Origin: Arthrobacter sp. ATA002
GTDB taxonomy: Bacteria > Actinomycetota > Actinomycetes > Actinomycetales > Micrococcaceae
Length of the DNA: 64,000 nucleotides
Direction: 5' to 3'
Assembly (NCBI RefSeq): GCF_026898095.1
Contig: NZ_CP114015.1
Location: 1-64,000 of the forward strand
Both the position numbers and the translations under genes were made by a program. The number at the start of each line of letters is the position of its first letter. The stretch's first letter is position 1. This document shows positions 495 to 35,406 of the stretch, in pieces. Under the pieces are notes generated by a model, which made no database searches, was not told where the DNA came from, and worked only from the letters and a program-made list of their open reading frames with translations.

Positions 495-5712
<5,218 letters not shown>

Positions 5713-6000: not shown

Positions 6001-6428
6001 GATAATTCCCGAAGACTGCTTTCCTTGATCCGGACGGACCCGCACGAAAATCCCCGGCTTTCCGCTCCGCTGCCCGTGGGCGCGGGATGGATCACCAGGA
6101 TGTTTTTGGTGGGGTTGGCCGCCATGCTCAGGATGTTTTCCAACTCCCGGCCGCGGCGACTTAGAAGACTCTACACGGGGTGGCCGGGCGGTGCAAATCG
6201 GCATTCAGAGCCGGCTCCCGGGCCCGTAGGGGACCCACACCGGGCCCACACCGGGCCCGAAAAATGGGCGCGGCAAACGGCGTCGTTCCCGTTCCCCGTT
6301 CCCCGTTCCCCGTTCCCCGTTCCCCGTTCCCCGAGAATCTCATCCCTGCGGCGGAGCTGCCTGCGTTCGCCCTTTGGCAGGCTTACTGAGCATGTCGGGG
6401 ACCTGCCGCGGCGGAAAGGAACGGACCG
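6001..6428. other. Non-coding interval between rRNA promoter and beta-lactamase-like gene
   Basis: Apart from the tandem repeat at 6285-6332 and an 11-bp duplication (CACACCGGGCC, about 6234-6258), I see no gene. The open frames here shift to low-complexity peptides over the repeats and lack ribosome binding sites. Further rRNA promoters could lie in the first half. Confidence 0.5.
6285..6332. repeat. Tandem repeat of GTTCCCC, six full copies
   Basis: Six exact copies of the 7-mer GTTCCCC run from 6291 to 6332, preceded by a partial GTTCCC at 6285. The array ends about 95 bases upstream of the next gene's start, outside coding sequence. A 7-bp unit is frame-shifting, so it is a likely variable-number locus between strains. 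Confidence 0.9.
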
Positions 6429-8390: not shown

Positions 8391-11300
8391 GTGAGTACAG
8401 CCCTTTACCGCCGCTACCGTCCCGAGAGCTTCGCGGACGTGATCGGGCAGGAGCACGTCACGGAGCCGCTGATGGCGGCCCTCTCCAAAAACCGCGTGAA
8501 TCACGCCTATCTCTTCTCCGGGCCCCGCGGCTGCGGCAAAACCACATCCGCCCGCATTTTGGCCCGCTGCCTGAACTGCGCCGAGGGCCCGACGCCGGTC
8601 CCGTGCGGCAAGTGCGACAGCTGCGTTGAACTGGCCCGCAACGGCTCCGGAAGCCTCGACGTCATCGAAATTGACGCGGCCAGCCACGGTGGCGTGGACG
8701 ATGCCCGCGACCTGCGTGAACGGGCCACCTTCGCCCCGGTTCGCGACCGCTACAAAATCTTCATCATTGACGAAGCCCACATGGTGACATCCGCCGGCTT
8801 CAACGCGCTGCTCAAGATCGTCGAAGAGCCGCCGGAGCACATCAAGTTCATCTTCGCCACCACCGAGCCGGACAAGGTGATCGGCACCATCCGGTCCCGC
8901 ACCCACCACTATCCGTTCCGGTTGGTTCCCCGGAACCGCTGCTGGCGTACCTGGACCGGCTCTGTGCGCAGGAAAACGTTCCGGTGGCGCCCGGAGTCCT
9001 GTCCCTGGTGATCCGCGCCGGCGGCGGCTCGGTCCGGGATTCGCTGTCCGTGCTGGACCAGCTGATGGCCGGGGCCGGCGAGTCGGGTCTGGACTATGAG
9101 CTGGCCGTCAACCTTTTGGGCTACACCCCCATCTCACTGCTCGACGACGTCGTCGACGCCTTTGCAGCCGGCGATTCCGCCACCGTTTTCCGCGCCGTCG
9201 ACCGCGTCATCCAAACCGGCCAGGACCCCCGGCGCTTCGTCGAGGACCTGCTGGAACGCTTCCGCGACCTGATCATCGTGCACGCGATGCCGGACAGCGC
9301 AGCCGCCGTGCTGCGGGGCATGCCCGAAGACCAGATCAGCCGGATGAGCACCCAGGCAACCCAGCTGGGCGGCGCCGAGCTCTCCCGCGCCGCCGACATC
9401 ACCAACACGGCGCTGACGGAAATGACCGGCGCCACCTCCCGCGGCTGCACCTGGAACTGCTCTGCGCCCGCATCCTGCTGCCCGCGGCCGACCAAACCGA
9501 ACGCGGCACAGCAGCGCGCGTGGACCGAATTGAACGGCGCCTGAGCTATGCCGGCGACAGCACCGAGGCCGTGGGCCGCGCGGCTGCCGCATCCTCGCCC
9601 GTTGAGTCCATTCCCGCAGCCCGCCCGACGACGGCGCCGGAGACGCCCGCCGTGGTGGCCGACGCGCCGGCTGACGTGCCGTCGGAACGGACTGCACCCG
9701 CCGTTGCGGAGACCCCGGCTGCGGCCGCCGTCCAGGACAGCTCCCCGTTGGACTGGGGCGGCACCTGGGCCACGGCTCCCGAACCGCAGGCACCGGCACC
9801 GGCACCGACCAACGGTTCCGCTGCTGCTACCACTCAGGACCAGGCACCGGCTACCGCGGGACGCCCCGCAGCCAATGCTTCCCCGGCCGGACAAGGCTGG
9901 CCCGCCGCCAACCCGGACGACCGCACGGCCGTTGCAGCGGAACCCCAGAACCAGGGACATGCTGGCTCCGGACCGTCCGACCAACCTGCTGCCGGCCAGT
10001 GGGGCCAGCAGGCCTCATCTGCTCCTGCTCCCGCACAGGGTGCAGGGTCCGGGGCTGCTCCAGCCCCGGCGGCTGCTGCCGGCGGAGGACAGGTCGAAAT
10101 GATCCGTCGCGCCTGGCCTGAGATCATGGATGCCCTGACCGGAATCCGGCGTGCCACCTGGCTCAACGTGAGCAAGAACGCCAGCCCGAAGTCGTTCGAC
10201 GGGCGAATCCTGGAGCTGGCGTTCAGCAACCAGGGCGCCGCCACCAACTTCAACCGTCCCGACCATCTGGAGAACCTCCGCAAGGCGGTCAGCCAGGTCC
10301 TCGGTGTCGACTGCCAGGTCAATGTGGTGCACGACAGTTCCGCGGCAGCGGGTGAGTCGGGCCCAAAAGCAGGTAGCCGGCTAACCCCGGCGCCGGCTTC
10401 CGCTCAGGTCCAGGCTCCGTCCCAGCACCAGTCCGCACCCGCACCCGCACCCCAGCAGCAGCCTGCGCGCGCACCCCAGCACCAGTTCGCGCCCGAACCC
10501 CAGCAGCCTGCGCGGCAGCAGCAACCTGCACCCGCAACGGCCCAGCCGGCCACGCCGTCCGTTCCCGAGCGGTCCGCGCCCCAGCAGTCCGCGCCACCAG
10601 CGTCAGCGCCGTCGGTTCCTGCCGCCGCTGCACCCTCTCCGGCTCCCGCAACTGCGCCGGCTCCGGCTCCCGCAGCTCCTGCTGCCCCCGAAGCACATGG
10701 TGCTTCGCCTGTGGTTTCAGGACCGGCAGCAGCCGCGGCACTGAACCGGCGGCGCAGCCAAAGTCCCCAGCCCGCGACACGTCAGCCGTCAGCACCGAGC
10801 CCCACCGGCCGGAGCCGCGGGGCAGCACCGGTCGGCGGACCGCTGCCCGAAGACTGGCAGCAGGAACCGCCCGAGGATCCTTATGCCGGCGGTCCGGAAA
10901 GCAACGCCTGGGAACAGGCCGAACCGCCGGCGGACGTTTATTCGGCCGGACACCTTTCAGACACCGAGTGGGCAGCAACCAACTGGGCCGGCACCGGCTC
11001 GTCTCCGGCACGCAACGGCGGCAACGGCGACAGCGGTGAGAGCGGCAACCAGGGCAGCTCCGGTCAGGGCAGCGCCGGCTACCGGACGGCAGCGGGTCCC
11101 GCAGGACCCGGAGCACCCCGAGCACCCGGAGCCGCGGCTTCGCCTCAGGTGGTGCCGCAACCGCAGCAGAATCAGCCATCGACGGCGCCCTCCGGGCAGG
11201 CGTCCGCGCCGGCGGCGCCCTCCGGGCAGGCGTCCGCGCCGTCGTCCGCATCAGGGTCCGCGCCGTCGTCGCTGTCAGGGTCTACGCCCGCGTCCGCACC

Positions 11301-26832: not shown

Positions 26833-28268
26833 TCAACGCCCCGGCACGGAAGCCGGGCCGGGAGCAGCGTACTCGCCGGTCTTCAACCGGTAGGAGGCTC
26901 CGCGGTGCTCCGCGGGCAGCCGGCTCCCCCGGCCGAACAGCTTGGAGCGCAGGGTTCCGGGTTCATACCCGGTGCGGTAGGCACCGCGCCGCTGCAGCTC
27001 GGGCACCACAAACTCGACGATGTCCTCAAACGTCCCCGGCGTGATGGCGTAGGCCAGGTTGAAGCCGTCGACGTCGGTTTCCTCCTGCCAGCGGATCATC
27101 TCCTCCGCGATTTCCGCGCCGGATCCGACCATGCGCGGGCCGAGGCCGCCGATGCCCGCGGAGTCGGCGATGTCGCGCACGGTCCACGGTTCGCCGTCGT
27201 CCGCGGGTTTTGGAAGTTCGCCGCCGCGGACTGGATGGCGTTGGACTTCACGTTGCCCAGCGGCTCGTCCAGGTTGTAGGTGGACAGGTCCACCCCCATC
27301 CAGCCGGACATCAGGGCCAGCGCCCCCTCGTGGCTGGCATACTGCCGGTATTCCTCGTGTTTGGCCGCGGCTTCTTCGGCGGTCGCGGCGGTGATCACGG
27401 TCATCAGCGTGTAGATGCGGATGGAGTGCCGGTCCCGTCCCGCGGCCTCGGCGGCGTCCCGGATCCGGGTGACCGTGGCCTTGAGCTTTTCCTTGGTGGG
27501 CGCTCCGACGAAAACCGCCTCCGCGTTGGCGGCCGCAAATGCGATCCCGCGCGGAGAGGCGCCGGCCTGGTAGATCACCGGCGTGCGCTGCGGCGACGGT
27601 TCACTGATGTGGATGCCGGGGACGGTGAAGTACTTGCCCTCGTGATTGATGTCGTGGACCTTGGCCGGGTCGGTGAAGATGCCTCGCTCCTTGTCGCGGA
27701 CGACGGCGTCGTCCTCCCAGGAGCCTTCGAGCAGTTTGTAGATCACTTCGAGGTATTCGTCGGCGTGGTTGTAGCGCTCATCGTGTTCGAGCTGGTCCCG
27801 GGCGCCCAGGTTCCGGGCGGCGGAGGGCAGATACCCGGTAACGACGTTCCAGCCCACCCGGCCGTTGGTGAGGTGGTCCAGGGTGGAGAGCCGGCGGGCA
27901 AACGGGTACGGATGCTCGTAGGCGGTTCCGGCGGTGACGCCGAAGCCGAGGTGCTCGGTCACCAGTGCCATCGCGGACACGAGCAGCAGCGGATCGTTCA
28001 CGGGCACCTGGGTTCCCTGGCGCAGCGTGGCGTCATTGGAATTTCCGTACACGTCGTAGGTGCCCAGGACGTCGGCCAGGAAAATGCCGTCGAACAGTCC
28101 ACGCTCGCAGGTTTTCGCCAAATGGGTCCAGTAGTTGAGGTCCGTGTAGTTGGCTGACCGGTCCTGCGGGTGGCGCCACAGCCCGGGCGACTGGTGGCCG
28201 ACGCAGTTCATGTCGAAGGCGTTGAAACGGATCTGGCGCAGGCTGTCCGGGTCTTGGTGCTCGGTCAT
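26833..28268 (-). CDS. LLM-class FMN monooxygenase of the NtaA/SnaA/DszA family, frameshifted
   Basis: These flavin-dependent enzymes open C-S or C-N bonds using reduced FMN and oxygen. The N-terminus has the signature family order: FNAFDMNCVGHQSPGLWRHPQDRS, YWTHLAKTCERGLFDGIFLADVLG, GWNVVTGYLPSAARNLG, YLEVIYKLLEGSWEDDAVV and QAGASPRGIAFAAANAEAVF. At about 27205 a base is lost near CCAAAACCCGCGG; the rest (RDIADSAGIGGLGPRMVGSGAEIAEEM..DGFNLAYAITPGTFEDIVEFVVPELQRRG) follows in another frame, total about 478 aa. It lies behind a SAM-IV-type riboswitch, so organosulfur compounds are the likely substrate. The exact substrate is unknown. Confidence 0.88.
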
Positions 28269-28269
28269 G

Positions 28270-28294
28270 GGAGCCTTTCGGAACGGGACGCTCC
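28270..28294 (-). promoter_or_regulatory. Hairpin over the monooxygenase ribosome binding site
   Basis: On the minus strand GGAGC (28294-28290) can pair with GCTCC (28274-28270), placing the AAAGG ribosome binding site between or at the edge of the arms. It could be the expression platform of the SAM-IV-type riboswitch, blocking translation when SAM is bound. The pairing is seen; the mechanism is inferred. Confidence 0.4.
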
Positions 28295-28329
28295 ATGGCG
28301 GAACGCCGTACTTGCCGTCCGCGGACGCG

Positions 28330-28422
28330 GCACGGCCGGATCCTCATCTGGGGCACCCCGCTACGGAGAAGAGGGTTGCCGCCCAACCAGCCAGAGCTTC
28401 GCGTTGGGACTCATGATCCTTC
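28330..28422 (-). ncRNA. SAM-IV-type riboswitch upstream of the monooxygenase
   Basis: On the minus strand the segment reads GGATCATGAGTCCCAACGCG, AAGC, CTGGCTGGTTGGGCGGCAACCC, then CGGGGTGCCCCAGATGAGGATCC when read in pieces. GGATC/GATCC (28415-28419 with 28338-28342) closes P1; the kink AUGAG, the GGCAACCC core and the GGGGUGCC segment match the SAM-IV (or SAM-I/IV) consensus of Actinobacteria. It should turn off the downstream monooxygenase gene when SAM is plentiful. The class was judged by eye, not by covariance search. Confidence 0.8.
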
Positions 28423-28463
28423 GGCTCCAGTATCTGCACAGTCCGGCCGCCCGAGGGAAGCCT

Positions 28464-28514
28464 GTGACCTTTTATTAACCGCCGGGGCTGAGCCGGCGGT
28501 TAATAAAAGGTCAC
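28464..28514. repeat. Perfect 22-bp inverted repeat with 7-base loop
   Basis: The left arm (28464-28485, beginning GTGACCTTTTATTAACC) and the right arm (28493-28514, ending GGTTAATAAAAGGTCAC) are exact reverse complements around GGCTGAG. It lies between two divergent riboswitch-controlled transcripts. It could be an operator for a dimer or tetramer, a back-to-back terminator, or a cruciform-forming site. AT-rich arms next to GC-rich tips are unusual here. Confidence 0.9.
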
Positions 28515-28579
28515 GGGCTGCCGGCAGGTACCTATCCACATTCCCCCGGGCCGGTCCGCCGAAATATTACGCGGGGGAC

Positions 28580-28608
28580 TTGCCGGTTTCCGCAATGACG
28601 CGTTTAGT
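28580..28608 (+). promoter_or_regulatory. Promoter of the sulfonate-transport operon
   Basis: The -35 TTGCCG (28580-28585) and -10 TTTAGT (28603-28608) are spaced by 17 bp. The expected transcription start, near 28615, falls right at the 5' edge of the SAM-I riboswitch, which supports the call. Confidence 0.6.
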
Positions 28609-28615
28609 AGCACTT

Positions 28616-28776
28616 GACCATCCCGAGCGGCTGAGAGACCTGGATCAGTGAAGCCGCAGCAACCCTGGTTGCCGTACCTCCTCCTTGAGGAACGGCAATA
28701 ACGAGGACAACACCGCAGGAGGCCCTCACCGGCCCAAGGTGCTTTCCGTAGGGTGCTACTGCCAGGACCGATGGAG
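28616..28776 (+). ncRNA. SAM-I (S-box) riboswitch upstream of the sulfonate ABC operon
   Basis: P1 pairs CCATC (28618-28622) with GATGG (28770-28774). The S-box core follows: GAGCGGCTGAGAGAC (kink-turn), then GTGAAGCCGCAGCAACC, an extended variable arm, and AAGGTGC..GGGTGCTACTGCCAGGACC. The ribosome binding site GGAGAG (28773-28778) overlaps the 3' strand of P1, eight bases from the ATG, so SAM binding would hide it and block translation directly. Regulation at the translation level is inference from this overlap. Confidence 0.85.
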
Positions 28777-28783
28777 AGTTAAC

Positions 28784-29615
28784 ATGACAGCCTTGGCTTC
28801 ACAGTCCCCTGCCGCTCCGCCGGCCGGCACCCCGGTGCACGCGCCCGCCGGCCCCGCCCTTCCCGTCACGTTTTCCCGCCTGGGCCGCAGCTTCGGCACC
28901 GGGCCGACGTCCCACCAGGTCTTACGCGACATCAATTTCGAGGTGTCCCCGGGAGAGGTCCTGGCCATCCTGGGCTCCAGCGGCTGCGGGAAATCGACCC
29001 TGCTGCGCGCCGCCGCCGGGCTGGATGCCGCCAGCACCGGGGAAGTGCTGATCAACGGCACTGCAGTGCGCGGGATCGACGACCGCTGCGCCGTCGCATT
29101 CCAGGAACCCCGGCTGCTGCCCTGGCAAACCCTGCAGGCCAACATCGCGATGGGGCTGCCCAAGGGCACCAGCGCCAAACACGGCAAGGCCAAAGTGGCC
29201 GAACTGCTGGAGCTCGTGGAGCTGGCGGACTTCGCCAAGCACCGTCCGCGGGCTGTCTCCGGAGGCATGGCGCAGCGCGCTTCCCTCGCCCGGGCGCTGG
29301 CCCGCACCCCGGAGTGCTCCTGCTCGATGAACCCTTCGGCGCCCTGGACGCGCTGACCCGGCTCAAAATGCAGGACCTGCTGCTCGCGGTCCACAAGGCC
29401 ACCCCCACCACGGTGCTGCTGGTAACCCACGACGTGGATGAAGCCCTTCAACTGGCGGACCGCATCATCATCCTCGGCAAGGAACCCGGCGCCCCGGAGC
29501 CACCATCACCGACGTCATCACCGTACCGGGCAGCCGGCCGCGGAACCGCGCCTCGGCGGAGCTGGCCCGAATGCGCGGCGAGCTCCTGGCCCGCCTCGGC
29601 GTTGACCGCCACTAA
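28784..29615 (+). CDS. Sulfonate/nitrate-type ABC transporter ATPase, two frameshifts
   Basis: The ATPase powers an importer of the SsuABC/TauABC group. Walker A is GSSGCGKST, the Q-loop is [13 protein letters not shown], the signature is [15 protein letters not shown] and Walker B is [16 protein letters not shown], followed by the H-loop [11 protein letters not shown]. Two single-base losses interrupt it, both in CCCC before GGAG: near 29310 (between signature and Walker B) and near 29493. With two C restored the frame ends at TAA 29615 with [14 protein letters not shown], about 277 aa. It is the first gene behind the SAM-I riboswitch. Confidence 0.9.
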
Positions 29616-29725: not shown

Positions 29726-30784
29726 ATGAACAGCCGTTCCCTTCCGTCCCGCCCCGCCGCCCGCACGACGCTCAAGACCCTGGCCGCAGCAGCCGCAGCC
29801 GCATCCCTGCTCCTGACCGGCTGCGTGGCAGGCGAGGATTCCGACGCCGCAGCCAACGCAAACGGAGCCGACGGCGGCACCCTCACCCTGGACTTCGCCA
29901 CCTACAATCCGCTGAGCCTGATCATCAAGGACCAGGGCTGGCTGGAGTCCACGCTGGCCGACGACGGCGTCAGCGTGGAATGGGTGCAGTCAGCCGGCTC
30001 CAACAAGGCCAACGAGAACCTGCGGTCCGGAGCGATCGATGTCGGTTCCACCGCCGGGTCCGCCGCCCTGCTCAACCGGGCCAACGGATCCCCGATCACG
30101 GCCATTGACGTTTTCTCCCAGCCCGAGTGGTCCGCACTGGTGGTGGGCGCCGATTCCGGCATCACCTCGGTGGCGGACCTGAAAGGCAAGTCGGTGGCCG
30201 CGACCAAGGGCACCGACCCCTACTTCTTCCTGGTGCAGGCGCTGGAGGAAGCCGGACTGAGCCTTGACGACGTCACCGTGGAGCAGCTGCAGCACGCGGA
30301 CGGACGCTCCGCACTGGAAAACGGTTCGGTGGACGCGTGGGCCGGACTGGATCCGATCATGGCCGGCGCCGAGCAGAACGGCGCCCGGCTGATCTACCGG
30401 AACCTGGACTTCAACACCTACGGCCTGCTGGCCGCCAACGAGGCTTTCCTCGACGAGGATCCCGAACTCGCGCAGGCCGTGGTGAACGCCTACGAGAAAG
30501 CCCGGGTCTGGGCCGCGGAGAACCCGGAGGAAACAGCAAGCATCCTCGCCGATGTTGCCGGCCTGGACCCGGCCGTGGCGCAGACGGTGATCCTGGAACG
30601 CAGCAACCTCGACGTCGATCCGGCTCCCGGCGCGGCGCAGCGCAGCGTGCTGGAGAAAATTGGTCCCACCCTCGTGGACACCGGAGACGTGGCGGACCAG
30701 GCCGGCATTGACTCCGCCCTGGACAGCCTCTTCGACGACTCCTACGTAAAGAACGCCGACCCGGATGCGGTGAAGGAATCCTGA
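29726..30784 (+). CDS. Sulfonate-type ABC transporter substrate-binding lipoprotein
   Basis: The 352-aa protein begins with a lipoprotein signal ([20 protein letters not shown]). The mature part follows the SsuA/TauA/NMT1 pattern: [46 protein letters not shown], the [27 protein letters not shown] block and [23 protein letters not shown]. It delivers the ligand to the permease from the outer face of the membrane. The ligand may be an alkanesulfonate or another organosulfur compound, judged from the riboswitch and neighbours. The ATG is behind AGAAAGAACTTCC. It overlaps the permease start by one base. Confidence 0.9.
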
Positions 30785-31647
30785 TGGCGCACCTCGAAAA
30801 TCCACAGCTGACCGGCAACAGCGCAGCGGCTGCGGTCCCGGCCGCGCCCGCTCCCTCCGCACCGGGGCGGAACTCCACCCCTGCCGGGCGCCTCTCCCGC
30901 CGCGGGGTACGGCTCGCCCTGGGCCTGGTGGTTCCCGCCGTGCTGCTCGCGGCCTGGCAGCTCAGCACGGCCGCCGGTGTGTTCACCGCCGTCCAACTGC
31001 CCTCCCCCGCCGCCGTCTACACCGCGGCGGCCAACCTCATCGACCGAGGCCAGCTCGGCCTGCACATCGCCATTTCCACCCAGCGGGTCCTCATCGGCTT
31101 TGCCGCGGGAGCCCTGCTGGGACTGGCATTGGGCGCCCTGCTGGGGCTGTCCCGGCTGGCGGAGGTCCTGCTGGGCCCGGCGATCGGCGCGCTGCGCGCC
31201 GTCCCGTCCCTGGCCTGGGTGCCGCTGCTGATCCTGTGGCTGAAGATCGGCGAAGATTCCAAGATCACGCTGATCGCCATCGGCGCGTTCTTCCCGGTGT
31301 TCACCACCGTGTCCCTGGCCCTGCGCCATGTGGACCGGAACCTGGTCGAAGCTGCCCGGGCCTTCGGCCTCAACGGCCTGAAACTGCTGACAACGGTGCA
31401 GCTGCCCGCCGTCGTGCCGGCGGTCTTCTCCGGCCTGCGGCTGGCGCTGGCGCAGGCCTGGCTGTTCCTGGTCGCCGCCGAACTCATCGCCTCCTCGATG
31501 GGCCTGGGCTTTTTGCTGATTGATTCGCAGAACAACGGGCGCACCGACCGCCTGTTGCTGGCCATCGTGCTGCTCGCCGTCATCGGCAAGCTCACCGATG
31601 CCCTGCTCGGTCTGGCCGAGAAATGGGCGGTGAAGAAATGGGCGTGA
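30784..31647 (+). CDS. Sulfonate-type ABC transporter permease
   Basis: The 287-aa inner-membrane permease belongs to the SsuC/TauC/NrtB group with about six helices. The EAA coupling loop is visible as RNLVEAARAFGLNGLKLLTTVQLPAVVPAVFSGLRLALAQAW; upstream lies LGALLGLSRLAEVLLGPAIGALRAVPSLAWVPLLILWLKIGE, typical for the family. The N-terminal 30 residues are Ala/Pro-rich and cytoplasmic. The gene overlaps the binding-protein gene and the following ligase gene, so the four genes should be one transcript. Confidence 0.92.
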   Translation: MAHLENPQLTGNSAAAAVPAAPAPSAPGRNSTPAGRLSRRGVRLALGLVVPAVLLAAWQLSTAAGVFTAVQLPSPAAVYTAAANLIDRGQLGLHIAISTQRVLIGFAAGALLGLALGALLGLSRLAEVLLGPAIGALRAVPSLAWVPLLILWLKIGEDSKITLIAIGAFFPVFTTVSLALRHVDRNLVEAARAFGLNGLKLLTTVQLPAVVPAVFSGLRLALAQAWLFLVAAELIASSMGLGFLLIDSQNNGRTDRLLLAIVLLAVIGKLTDALLGLAEKWAVKKWA

Positions 31648-33656
31648 CTCCAACCATCGAAGCCACCGCGGACCTAACCGCCGCCGACCCATCCACCGAA
31701 GCCGAACGAATCGCCTTCTGGGAAGCCGCCGCCGGGCGGCTCCAGTGGGAGCAGCCCTGGCACACCGCGCACACCTTCACTCCCCCGCAGCGCCTCAGCG
31801 GAGCGGAAATCCCCGAAGCCGACGCCGAGTACAGCGTTCCCGTGATTGAGTGGTTCGCCGGCGGCACGCTCAATGTCGCGGTGAACTGCGTGGACCGGCA
31901 TGTGGCCGCCGGGCGCGGCGGCAACGTGGCCCTGCACTTTGAGGGCGAGCCCGGCGACCGCCGGACCATCACCTATGCGCAGCTGCAGCGGGACGTCTCC
32001 CGCGCCGCCAATGCCCTGCTGGCCCTGGGCATCGGCCGCGGGGACCGGGTGGTCATTTACCTTCCGGTGCTGGTGGAGACCATCGTCATTACGCTGGCCT
32101 GCGCCCGGATCGGTGCCGTCCATTCGCTGGTCTTCGGCGGTTTCTCCGCCGAAGCCCTGAAGTTCCGGGTCGAGGACACCGGGGCGAAGCTGCTGGTCAC
32201 CACCGACGGCCAGTTCCGCCGCGGAGAGGCGGTGCCGGTCAAGGACAACGCCGATGCGGCCGTTGCCGGAACCAACGCCGTCGAGCACGTGCTGGTGATC
32301 CGGCGGACCGGATCCGAGATCGCCTGGGTCCAGGGACGCGATGTCTGGTGGCACGAAACCGTCGACACGGCGTCGGACGTCCACCAGCCGGAGGCCTTTG
32401 ATGCGGAAACACCGCTGTTCATCATGTACACCTCCGGCACCACCGGAAAACCCAAGGGCCTGGTCCACACCATGGGCGGCTACCTGACCCAGGCCTCCTG
32501 GAGCTACGAGTACCTGTTCGCCAACCCGGACCACTCCGCCCGCGGGCGCGACGTTCACTGGTGCACCGCGGACCTGGCCTGGGTCACCGCCCACACGTAC
32601 GAGATGTACGGGCCGCTCGCCAACGGCGCCACCCAAGTGATTTTCGAGGGCACCCCCAACACCCCGCATCCGGGCCGGCACTTCGAGATCATCGAGCGGT
32701 ACCAGGTAACCAGCTACTACACGGCGCCCACCCTGGTCCGGTCCCTGATGGGCTGGTTCCCCGACGGCATTCCGGACACATACGACCTCTCCTCCATCCG
32801 GCTGCTGGGCACGGTGGGGGAAGCGGTGAACCCCGAGGCCTGGCGCTGGATGCGCGACCAGCTCGGCCGCGGCGAAGTACCGGTCATCGACACCTGGTGG
32901 CAGTCAGAAACCGGCGCCACCATCCTTTCCCCGCGCCCCACGGACACAGCGTTCAAACCCGGCTGCGCCTCCCGTGCGCTGCCCGGCGTGAGCACCAGGA
33001 TCGTGGATGAGGCCGGAGCCGCGGTGCCGCCGAACACGCAGGGATTCATCGTGCTAGACCGGACCGGGCCGGCCATGGCCCGCACGGTCTGGGGCGACCC
33101 GCAGCGCTACCTGTCCTCCTACTGGCGGCAGTATGCGCGGCAGGGCTGGTTCCTGGCGGGCGACGGCGCCAAGTACGACGACGACGGCGACACCTGGATC
33201 CTCGGCCGCACCGACGATGTGCTCAACGTGTCCGGGCACCGCCTGTCCACCATCGAAATCGAATCGGCCCTGGTCTCCCATCCCTGGGTCACCGAGGCCG
33301 GGGTCTGCCCGGTCGCCGATCCGACCACCGGACATGCGGTGGCTGCCTTCGTGGTCCTCTCGGCGGCCGCGGCGGAGGCCCTGCCCGCACCGGGACCGGC
33401 GGACCCGGTGTTCACCCGCCGCGTCACCGCGGAGCTGCGGGCCCACGTTGCCCGGGAAATCGGGCCGATCGCCAAGCCGGCCGCCGTCGTCGTCGTTCCC
33501 GATGTGCCCAAGACCCGCTCCGGGAAAATCATGCGCCGGCTGCTGACCCAGCTGTATGAGGGCACCGGGCTGGGCGATACCACCAGCCTGCAGAACGAAC
33601 CGTGCATCCCCGACATTGCGCGCATCTGCGGTGCCCGGCGGGAAGCGGCTCAGTGA
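31623..33656 (+). CDS. Acetate-CoA ligase (acetyl-CoA synthetase family)
   Basis: The 677-aa enzyme has the adenylate-forming motifs: A3 YTSGTTGKPKG (about residues 272-282), A5 TWWQSETGATILSP, A7 WFLAGDGAKYDDDGDTWILGRTDDVLNVSGHRLST and A10 PKTRSGKIMRR with the acetylatable lysine. The tryptophan of WWQSETG is the residue that restricts Acs to short acids such as acetate. An ATG at 31638 is an alternative start. It overlaps the permease gene by 25 bases. In this locus it could reclaim the acetate set free by the downstream O-acetylhomoserine sulfhydrylase; activation of a sulfonated acid is another possibility. Confidence 0.9.
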   Translation: MGGEEMGVTPTIEATADLTAADPSTEAERIAFWEAAAGRLQWEQPWHTAHTFTPPQRLSGAEIPEADAEYSVPVIEWFAGGTLNVAVNCVDRHVAAGRGGNVALHFEGEPGDRRTITYAQLQRDVSRAANALLALGIGRGDRVVIYLPVLVETIVITLACARIGAVHSLVFGGFSAEALKFRVEDTGAKLLVTTDGQFRRGEAVPVKDNADAAVAGTNAVEHVLVIRRTGSEIAWVQGRDVWWHETVDTASDVHQPEAFDAETPLFIMYTSGTTGKPKGLVHTMGGYLTQASWSYEYLFANPDHSARGRDVHWCTADLAWVTAHTYEMYGPLANGATQVIFEGTPNTPHPGRHFEIIERYQVTSYYTAPTLVRSLMGWFPDGIPDTYDLSSIRLLGTVGEAVNPEAWRWMRDQLGRGEVPVIDTWWQSETGATILSPRPTDTAFKPGCASRALPGVSTRIVDEAGAAVPPNTQGFIVLDRTGPAMARTVWGDPQRYLSSYWRQYARQGWFLAGDGAKYDDDGDTWILGRTDDVLNVSGHRLSTIEIESALVSHPWVTEAGVCPVADPTTGHAVAAFVVLSAAAAEALPAPGPADPVFTRRVTAELRAHVAREIGPIAKPAAVVVVPDVPKTRSGKIMRRLLTQLYEGTGLGDTTSLQNEPCIPDIARICGARREAAQ

Positions 33657-34064: not shown

Positions 34065-35406
34065 ATGAGTGATCGCCAGTTCGGCTTCCGGACCCGTGCC
34101 CTGCACGCCGGCGGAACGCCCGACGCCACACGGCGCCCGCGCCGTGCCCATCTACCAGAGCACATCGTTTGTCTTCAAAGACACCGACGACGCCGCCAAC
34201 CTCTTCTCGCTGCAGAAGTACGGCAACATCTACTCCCGCATCGGCAATCCGACCGTCGCTGCCTTCGAGGAACGCATCGCCTCACTCGAGGGCGGCATCG
34301 GGGCGGTGGCCACGGCGTCGGGCATGTCCGCGGAATTCGTGACCTTCGCCGCCCTGTGCGGGGCCGGCGACCATATTGTGGCCGCTGCCCAGCTGTACGG
34401 CGGCACGGTAACCCAGCTCGACGTCACCCTGCGCCGCTTCGGCATCGACACCACTTTCGTTCCCGGCACCGACCCGGCCGATTACGCCGCCGCCATCCGG
34501 GAGAACACCAAGGCCGTGTACGCCGAAGTGGTGGCCAACCCCAGCGGCGAAGTCACCGACATTGCCGGGCTGGCGAAGGTGGCGCACGACGCCGGCGTGC
34601 CGCTGATCCTCGATGCCACCCTGAGCACGCCGTACCTGGTGCGCCCGTTCGAGCACGGCGCGGACATCGTGATTCACTCCGCCACCAAGTTCCTCGGCGG
34701 GCACGGCACCACGCTGGGCGGCGTCGTCGTCGAATCCGGAAAGTTCAACTGGGGCAACGGCAAGTTCCCCGCCATGACCGAACCCGTGGCCAGCTACGGC
34801 AACATCTCCTGGTGGGGAAACTTCGGCGAGTACGGGTTCCTGACCAAACTGCGCTCCGAGCAGCTGCGCGACATTGGACCGACGCTGAGCGCAACATCGG
34901 CATTTGCCCTGCTGCAGGGCGTGGAAACCCTCCCGCAGCGCCTGGATGAACACCTGAAAAACGCGCAGGCCGTGGCCGAATGGCTGGAAGCCGACCCGCG
35001 CGTATCGTGGGTCAGCTACGCCGGCCTGCCGTCCCACCCGCACCATGAACGGGCCAAAAAGTACCTGCCCAAGGGGCCGGGATCGGTCTTCAGCTTTGGC
35101 GTCCGCGGCGGCCGCGAGGCCGGCAGAGCCTTTATCGAGGCCCTGCAGCTGGCCTCCCACCTGGCGAACGTGGGTGATTCACGGACCTTGGTCATCCATC
35201 CCGGATCCACCACGCACGGCCAGCTCTCCACCGAGCAGTTGTCCGCCGCCGGCGTCGCCGAGGACCTGATCCGCATTTCCGTGGGACTGGAGAACCTTGA
35301 GGACATCCTCTGGGACCTGGACCAAGCCCTTGACGCGGTAGTGTCCGCCGATGCCGCCGCCGTATCTGTTGTGCCGACCTTCGAGGAGCCCGCCCGTGTC
35401 AGCTGA
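34065..35406 (+). CDS. O-acetylhomoserine sulfhydrylase, frameshifted near the N-terminus
   Basis: This PLP enzyme makes homocysteine and acetate from O-acetylhomoserine and sulfide. The start MSDRQFGFRTRALHAGGTPDAT is normal for MetY. At about 34125, GCCACACGGCGCC lacks two bases compared with the expected ATTGARAVPIY; after that the frame is clean: YQSTSFVFKDTDDAANLF, YSRIGNPTVAAFEERIA, GASGMSAEF-like and the PLP-lysine region VIHSATKFLGGHGTTLGG. The corrected length is about 447 aa. The Shine-Dalgarno is GAAAGGAG. Context with the SAM riboswitch operon supports a role in methionine synthesis. Confidence 0.92.

Follow-up and report, generated by a model that had tools for sequence, protein, structure and literature searches.

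An S-box subtype without P4 and with a covarying P3 domain, divergent from a SAM-IV aptamer, at a sulfur locus of Arthrobacter sp. ATA002

The DNA stretch of Arthrobacter sp. ATA002 analyzed here (contig NZ_CP114015.1, positions 1 to 64,000; 64,000 nucleotides, referred to as the window) includes a divergent sulfur locus whose two leaders carry SAM aptamers of different classes. The plus-strand leader includes an S-box (SAM-I) that lacks helix P4 and has a covarying domain inserted in P3. This subtype is the most notable feature of the locus. The minus-strand leader includes a SAM-IV aptamer, and the divergent SAM-I/SAM-IV pair recurs in about half of the genomes sampled from the genus. Both leaders are probably SAM-triggered OFF switches of translation, one for each half of the sulfur-acquisition locus, as judged from their anatomy. 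The features of the locus are the following.

27096-28268, minus: NtaA/DmoA-family FMN-dependent monooxygenase ORF (TIGR03860, 460.5 bits; profile positions 1-334 of 422)
28266-28310, minus: putative SAM-IV expression platform, a hairpin region with GGCG overlapping the pseudoknot strand (15-genome leader alignment and short folds)
28278-28274 and 28268-28266, minus: Shine-Dalgarno (SD)-like AAAGG and start codon ATG, within the SAM-IV expression platform
28303-28418, minus: SAM-IV aptamer (RF00634, 90.5 bits); P3 loop CCGUA (28366-28362) and UACGG (28310-28306) form the second pseudoknot
28429-28434, minus: -10-like GATACT of the SAM-IV transcript, found by eye; ATACTG is conserved in all 15 leaders aligned
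28456-28522, no strand assigned: inverted repeat between two probable promoters, 30-nt arms 93% complementary, 7-nt loop
28580-28608, plus: promoter-like TTGCCG (28580-28585), 17-base spacer and TTTAGT (28603-28608), found by eye; TTTAGT is kept in the genus alignment
28615-28777, plus: SAM-I (S-box) aptamer without P4 (RF00162, 41.8 bits, and alignment); P1 is 28618-28622/28770-28774
28639-28643 with 28762-28766, plus: P2-loop pseudoknot of five pairs, CCUGG with CCAGG, supported by pseudoknot variants
28667-28747, plus: inserted P3 domain, 81 nt, defined by covariation; hairpin H1 (28669-28698), stem H2 (28709-28714/28738-28743) and hairpin H3 (28721-28724/28731-28734)
28773-28776, plus: SD-like GGAG, its first two bases shared with the P1 3′ strand, 7 bases before the ATG at 28784
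28784-29356, plus: ssuB-like ABC ATPase ORF; homology runs on in another frame from about 29314, so that the frame is broken
29726-30784, plus: SsuA-family sulfonate substrate-binding protein (TIGR01728, 216.9 bits; cut-off, 163.5)
30784-31647, plus: SsuC-like ABC permease (NF008470, 183.7 bits, below the equivalog cut-off of 347)
31623-33656, plus: acetate--CoA ligase family protein (TIGR02188, 765.4 bits; cut-off, 724.95)
34069-35406, plus: O-acetylhomoserine sulfhydrylase family protein (TIGR01326, 576.3 bits; cut-off, 495.1), possibly co-transcribed

By homology, the locus is one of sulfur acquisition and methionine genes on both sides of the leaders, with the monooxygenase on one side and the ssu genes on the other. 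The monooxygenase of a relative (L025) spans TIGR03860 positions 1-422, which indicates that the window copy is out of frame near its end. The ssuB-like ORF is also frame-broken near its end, and both genes are full-length in relatives. The loss of frame is due to either sequencing errors or real mutations.

A search of the whole window with the Rfam covariance models revealed a full-length match to SAM-IV (RF00634) on the minus strand, nucleotides 28418 to 28303, that covers model positions 1-116 of 116 with a score of 90.5 bits, the gathering score being 38 (E 5.3e-15). A feature of SAM-IV is a second pseudoknot, formed by the P3 loop with bases 3′ of P1/P5. This pseudoknot is present as CCGUA/UACGG in the window and as CCGCG/CGCGG in a paralogue from the same genome (L049); it is shifted by one base in two other paralogues (L051 and L052), and four of its five pairs are kept in another (L050). 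The full-length match, the second pseudoknot, the sulfur gene downstream and the actinobacterial host are all shared with known SAM-IV elements, from which the aptamer shows no notable difference; it is unusual only in its back-to-back position with an S-box. The whole genome (3.9 Mb, one contig) contains five SAM-IV matches over the cut-off and three SAM-I matches, one of them above the cut-off; therefore neither class is exotic in this organism. Two divergent SAM-IV elements of this genome, L051:2833-2957 (minus) and L052:2940-3078 (minus), scored 66 and 38.8 bits and have ACC/GGU at the base of P3 in place of GGC/GCC; the ORF that follows the former appears by eye to code for a metal-ion transporter-like protein. 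A SAM-I/IV element, which the preliminary description had considered as an alternative for the minus leader, is not supported as the class of either aptamer, since RF01725 matched nowhere in the genome at E<=10. Nor are the two classes unrelated, as that description allowed: SAM-I and SAM-IV both belong to Rfam clan CL00012.

S-boxes are textbook RNAs, and the plus-strand element is like other members of RF00162 in its P1, P2 and P3 core and in the P2-loop pseudoknot. It differs from them in having no P4, in the covarying three-helix 81-nt insert in P3, and in a score just below the family cut-off. A 651-base scan (28200-28850) carried down to E 10 gave a full-length RF00162 match at 28615-28777 with E 4.2e-8 (5.9e-8 over the 3.9-Mb genome, at the same 41.8 bits), 2.6 bits short of the gathering score of 44.4. 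As a consequence, a gathering-score Rfam scan alone omits this S-box, and an E-value scan recovers it. The covariance search of both strands, set beforehand as the test that could refute the assignment of minus and plus leaders to SAM-IV and SAM-I, found a significant SAM-family match on each strand. Both assignments were confirmed, that of the plus leader at full length though below the cut-off, and the account of it as an S-box was correct as to class and did not mention the remodelled P3. SAM-I/IV belongs to the same clan and has a SAM-I-like core; the P2 internal loop is kept here by sequence, whereas it is reported as absent from SAM-I/IV (PMC2864571).

The core of the long S-box is almost invariant among 28 sequences of the genus. 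P1 does not vary among the 50 distinct long S-boxes, and in a 57-sequence alignment pairs are kept in 100% of cells for P1, 100% for lower P2 and 99% for P3; the value of 68-73% for upper P2 is explained by one pair that is G-A in most sequences. The P2-loop pseudoknot reads CCUGG/CCAGG in 95 of 100 distinct cores that match the pattern in the fetched loci. Three of the others keep all five pairs by double changes (one CCUGC/GCAGG and two UCUGG/CCAGA), and two have UCUGG/CCAGG with one U-G. There is no room for a P4 helix: 2 bases are found in the window as opposed to 18 hidden model positions. Among the 57 long-form elements, just 3 attain the Rfam cut-off (none of the 28 from the genus of the window, 3 of the 29 from other genera), so that a low score accompanies the presence of the insert and the absence of P4. 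It is thus hardly credible that the plus element is a decayed, non-working S-box, as a score below the cut-off could suggest, given also the invariant P1 and an insert that covaries over five genera. The folding energy of both leaders is unremarkable (plus, z -1.19, 22 of 200 shuffles as good; minus, z +0.90, 163 of 200); the evidence for the two elements comes from covariance models and conservation.

The inserted P3 domain is formed by three helices, with H3 capping H2 and H1 as a separate hairpin. The long-form alignment comprised 28 sequences of the genus and 29 from four other genera that could be aligned at full length (57 rows, 50 distinct); six intermediate matches of 135-146 nt (G037, G241, G191, G167, G256 and G146, corresponding to L107-L112) and shorter S-boxes were not included in the alignments used for covariation. 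The P3 pairs of the long-form models were taken from the Rfam match, i.e. they were imposed rather than predicted. In this alignment, which was fitted to the model and is hence not independent of it, 95.0% of the cells pair, and double changes are seen at 20 pairs, in 305 cells altogether. These 20 pairs are distributed as 10 in H1, 5 in H2, 4 in H3 and 1 in P2; therefore 19 are located in the insert. The covariation score was 0.341; shuffles gave 0.107 and slid versions 0.044-0.066. Of the five measures, one, the number of further pair types, was not above the shuffles (53 versus 50.1, reached by 94 of 500). A MAFFT alignment made independently from the 28 sequences of the genus (23 of them distinct) gave 11 pairs with double changes and a score of 0.209 versus 0.116, with further pair types again low (20 versus 24.0, fewer than in all 500 shuffles). 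Unconstrained RNAalifold on the MAFFT alignment recovered H1, H2 and H3; it did not find the SAM-I form of P3, pairing columns 50-55 with 151-156 and 92-93 with 136-137. The insert also includes conserved unpaired AURNCRAGG and CC/GG-rich stretches. In 74 of 76 distinct sequences the H1 loop could form at least three G-C-rich pairs with the segment that precedes H3, and when the partners were shuffled the observed mean was reached in 105 of 5000 trials with 43 distinct combinations and in 640 of 5000 with 24, results that are suggestive only of a pseudoknot between these regions.

A model of the P3 insert alone, run against 24 genomes, gave 15 strong matches, each within an S-box, and 5 weak ones (E 0.05-0.1) that were taken as chance. 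The domain was consequently rejected as a free-standing element. We think that it buttresses the S-box aptamer. It could instead be a second sensor nested in the S-box, which would allow the ssu leader to integrate SAM with a metabolite, protein or tRNA signal. The strong covariation and the conserved unpaired stretches would fit such a sensor, but a structural prop explains the same data and the insert was never found outside S-boxes in the 24 genomes. A published case in line with this idea is the SAM-I leader of Xanthomonas campestris, which is reported to exert mainly translational control and to sense initiator tRNA as well (PMC7270179). Both are SAM-I leaders with parts beyond the minimal; in Xanthomonas, however, the additional sensing takes place in the expression platform and not in P3, while the extra domain described here is inside P3 (PMC7270179). 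We regard a second sensor as unlikely. If it were real, the ssu leader would combine SAM with a further cue to methionine or sulfur status, and its SAM-IV neighbour would read SAM alone. No description of a P3-extended S-box was found in the part of the literature covered, which is weak evidence of novelty.

The long S-box was found in 28 of the 29 genomes returned by a search for the genus (covariance search, E<=1e-4; absent from G018). Among the matches listed for a long-form model in 245 genomes of the family, those longer than 155 nt and above 110 bits came from 40 genomes in 5 genera; 16 of these genomes belong to the genus of the window and the other 24 to g8, g10, g25 and g32. At the scale of the order, with stricter filters, 9 of 396 genomes drawn had a match at E<=1e-24, all of them from the same family. 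An exact pattern of the long form, which fits 54 of the 57 known examples, was run on a named collection of 84,980 species and returned 56 stretches, all but one titled Arthrobacter or Pseudarthrobacter, the exception being a 'Micrococcaceae bacterium' MAG. By similarity to seven references, the gene after the long S-box is ssuB in 75 of 81 distinct stretches and acetate--CoA ligase in 1; in 5 it resembles none of them. A 3-kb query of the locus matched 846 records of a plasmid collection, none covering 80% of it; the 20 matches listed correspond to the monooxygenase side, 41% of the query.

The two aptamers are located 196 bases apart with their 5′ ends facing, in agreement with the distance of about 200 bases and the divergent placement over a sulfur locus given in the preliminary description; its span of 28330-28776 was slightly off, the outer ends being at 28303 and 28777. 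When both families were searched (E<=1e-4), a SAM-IV divergent from the long S-box was found in 15 of the 29 genus genomes, at distances of 136-1114 bp. The arrangement had been called rare, and this comparison of synteny, with the pair present within 1.2 kb in those 15 genomes, does not bear that out. In 6 of the 15, about 1 kb with an ORF separates the leaders; by eye these ORFs are unrelated, alpha/beta hydrolase-like in three genomes and coding for a membrane protein in three (L031 and L032 versus L022, L023 and L026). Another genome (G012) has a SAM-IV in the divergent sense 8.6 kb from the long S-box and no monooxygenase in the stretch examined, which stops short of the SAM-IV. In the remaining 11 there is no SAM-IV near the S-box and no monooxygenase in the stretches of ~7 kb examined. 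Of the 56 named stretches with a long S-box, 9 also hold a SAM-IV, a lower bound because the stretches are at most 8 kb and unevenly placed. Genus g8 shows a related organization in four genomes, in which a SAM-IV and a second S-box, divergent from each other, lie together with a long S-box within ~2.5 kb. In one of these loci (L096) the long S-box is followed by ssuB, the SAM-IV by a DszC/SfnB-like gene below equivalog cut-offs, and the second S-box by a gene that we read as MetE-like (no NCBIfam match at E<=1e-30). One Arthrobacter-type genome has four SAM riboswitches, belonging to two classes, that lie within 6.6 kb (L088), at 4001-4173 (minus), 5485-5599 (minus), 6224-6337 (plus) and 10420-10586 (plus).

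The class of aptamer at the monooxygenase gene is not fixed: in G014 the orthologous enzyme, 84% identical over 344 amino acids, has an S-box in place of the SAM-IV. That locus (L019) thus has two divergent S-boxes, 4020-4112 (minus) and 4293-4458 (plus), at a gene that carries a SAM-IV in 15 relatives. These observations bear on the idea, a stronger form of the different SAM thresholds suggested in the preliminary description, that the two classes are kept for different SAM set-points, so that the two transcripts would respond in sequence. Retention of the mixed pair in 15 of 29 genomes and the SAM-I/SAM-IV divergent pairs of the four g8 genomes are consistent with it. On the other hand, the replacement in G014 argues that the class at that gene is exchangeable, and other members of the family (G092, G069 and G225) have divergent pairs of a single class (SAM-I/SAM-I); we consider distinct set-points possible but doubtful. 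Tandem mixed SAM riboswitches are known, SAM-II/SAM-V and SAM-II/SAM-I/IV (PMC9481103). They resemble the present pair in having two SAM classes close together, and differ from it in that they lie on the same strand of one transcript, whereas here the elements are divergent and belong to two transcripts (PMC9481103). The literature was compared in part (PMC3766115, PMC2864571, PMC7270179, PMC12452182, PMC9481103), and within that partial coverage divergent SAM-I/SAM-IV leaders were not found described, again weak evidence of novelty.

The inverted repeat between the leaders may be an operator or a local duplication. It was rejected as a genomic repeat, since there is no second full copy in the genome, where 11 further partial matches of 14-23 bases have E 0.065 or worse. 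It is not kept as a palindrome in the aligned relatives, several of which have a GTTCACA..GGTCAT-like stretch that resembles the left arm. Matches to miRNA families were far below their gathering scores (best, 23.5 bits versus 60).

From the sequence of the two leaders we infer SAM binding, the direction of control and a translational mechanism as follows. The minus transcript, coding for the FMN monooxygenase, would start just upstream of 28418 and carry the SAM-IV. Binding of SAM would favour the second pseudoknot, capturing UACGG; the hairpin further downstream that also depends on this GG would be broken, and nearby bases could then pair with the AAGG ribosome site. Across 15 aligned SAM-IV leaders the GG of UACGG is indeed able to form a hairpin alternatively. 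Folds from the pseudoknot GG to the SD have GGCG...CGUC in 14 of 15 leaders and GGCG/CGCC in the window; in 8 of the 15 folds neither G of the SD is paired, and in the other 7 they take part in helices of 2-3 pairs. When the pseudoknot strand is deleted and the piece is lengthened by 8 bases on its 3′ side, both SD G are paired in 14 leaders and one G in the remaining one, a rough comparison given that the pieces are short and the two sets cover different bases. These predicted folds favour an OFF switch of translation.

The plus transcript, including ssuB, ssuA, ssuC and following genes, would start near 28610 and carry the S-box, which begins 6 bases after the end of TTTAGT. A P1 stabilised by SAM would hide GGAG, the first two bases of which are part of its 3′ strand. 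GATGGAG followed by ATG within 3-9 bases is found in 28 of 28 genus sequences, and the 6 bases between the S-box and the ATG at 28784 leave no room for a terminator; therefore the ribosome site is most naturally taken to be hidden by P1. Terminators are commonly used by the SAM-I leaders of Firmicutes, which could suggest control of transcription, by termination or Rho, instead of translation. Such control is improbable in view of those 6 bases and of the about 35 that separate the SAM-IV aptamer from its ATG. The proposal of two translational OFF switches is thus based on the covariance matches on both strands, the divergent pair in 15 of 29 genomes, the sulfur and methionine genes on both sides, the invariant P1, the conserved GATGGAG near the ATG, the paired changes of the SAM-IV pseudoknot in paralogues and the short folds of SAM-IV leaders. 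Against it count the S-box score below the Rfam cut-off, the window hairpin that is GGCG/CGCC where 14 others have GGCG/CGUC, and the energy folding of the plus leader, in which the SD pairs with other bases whether the leader folds freely or its P1 5′ strand is blocked, so that release of the SD was obtained in neither case, and one of four SD bases is free with the aptamer imposed. The preliminary claims of a ribosome site masked by SAM-dependent pairing and of translational control thus hold in part: the overlap of GGAG with P1 and the anatomy of both leaders make them plausible, and folding of the S-box leader does not reproduce the release of the SD.

Under this proposal, high SAM would lead to less uptake of organosulfur compounds and less of the enzyme that attacks them. 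The family has a conserved S-box subtype ahead of ssu genes that lies mostly under the Rfam cut-off, and an S-box without P4 is a natural test of the role of P4 in SAM-I. The divergent SAM-I/SAM-IV pair, together with the replacement found in G014, constitutes a natural experiment on class interchangeability and set-points.
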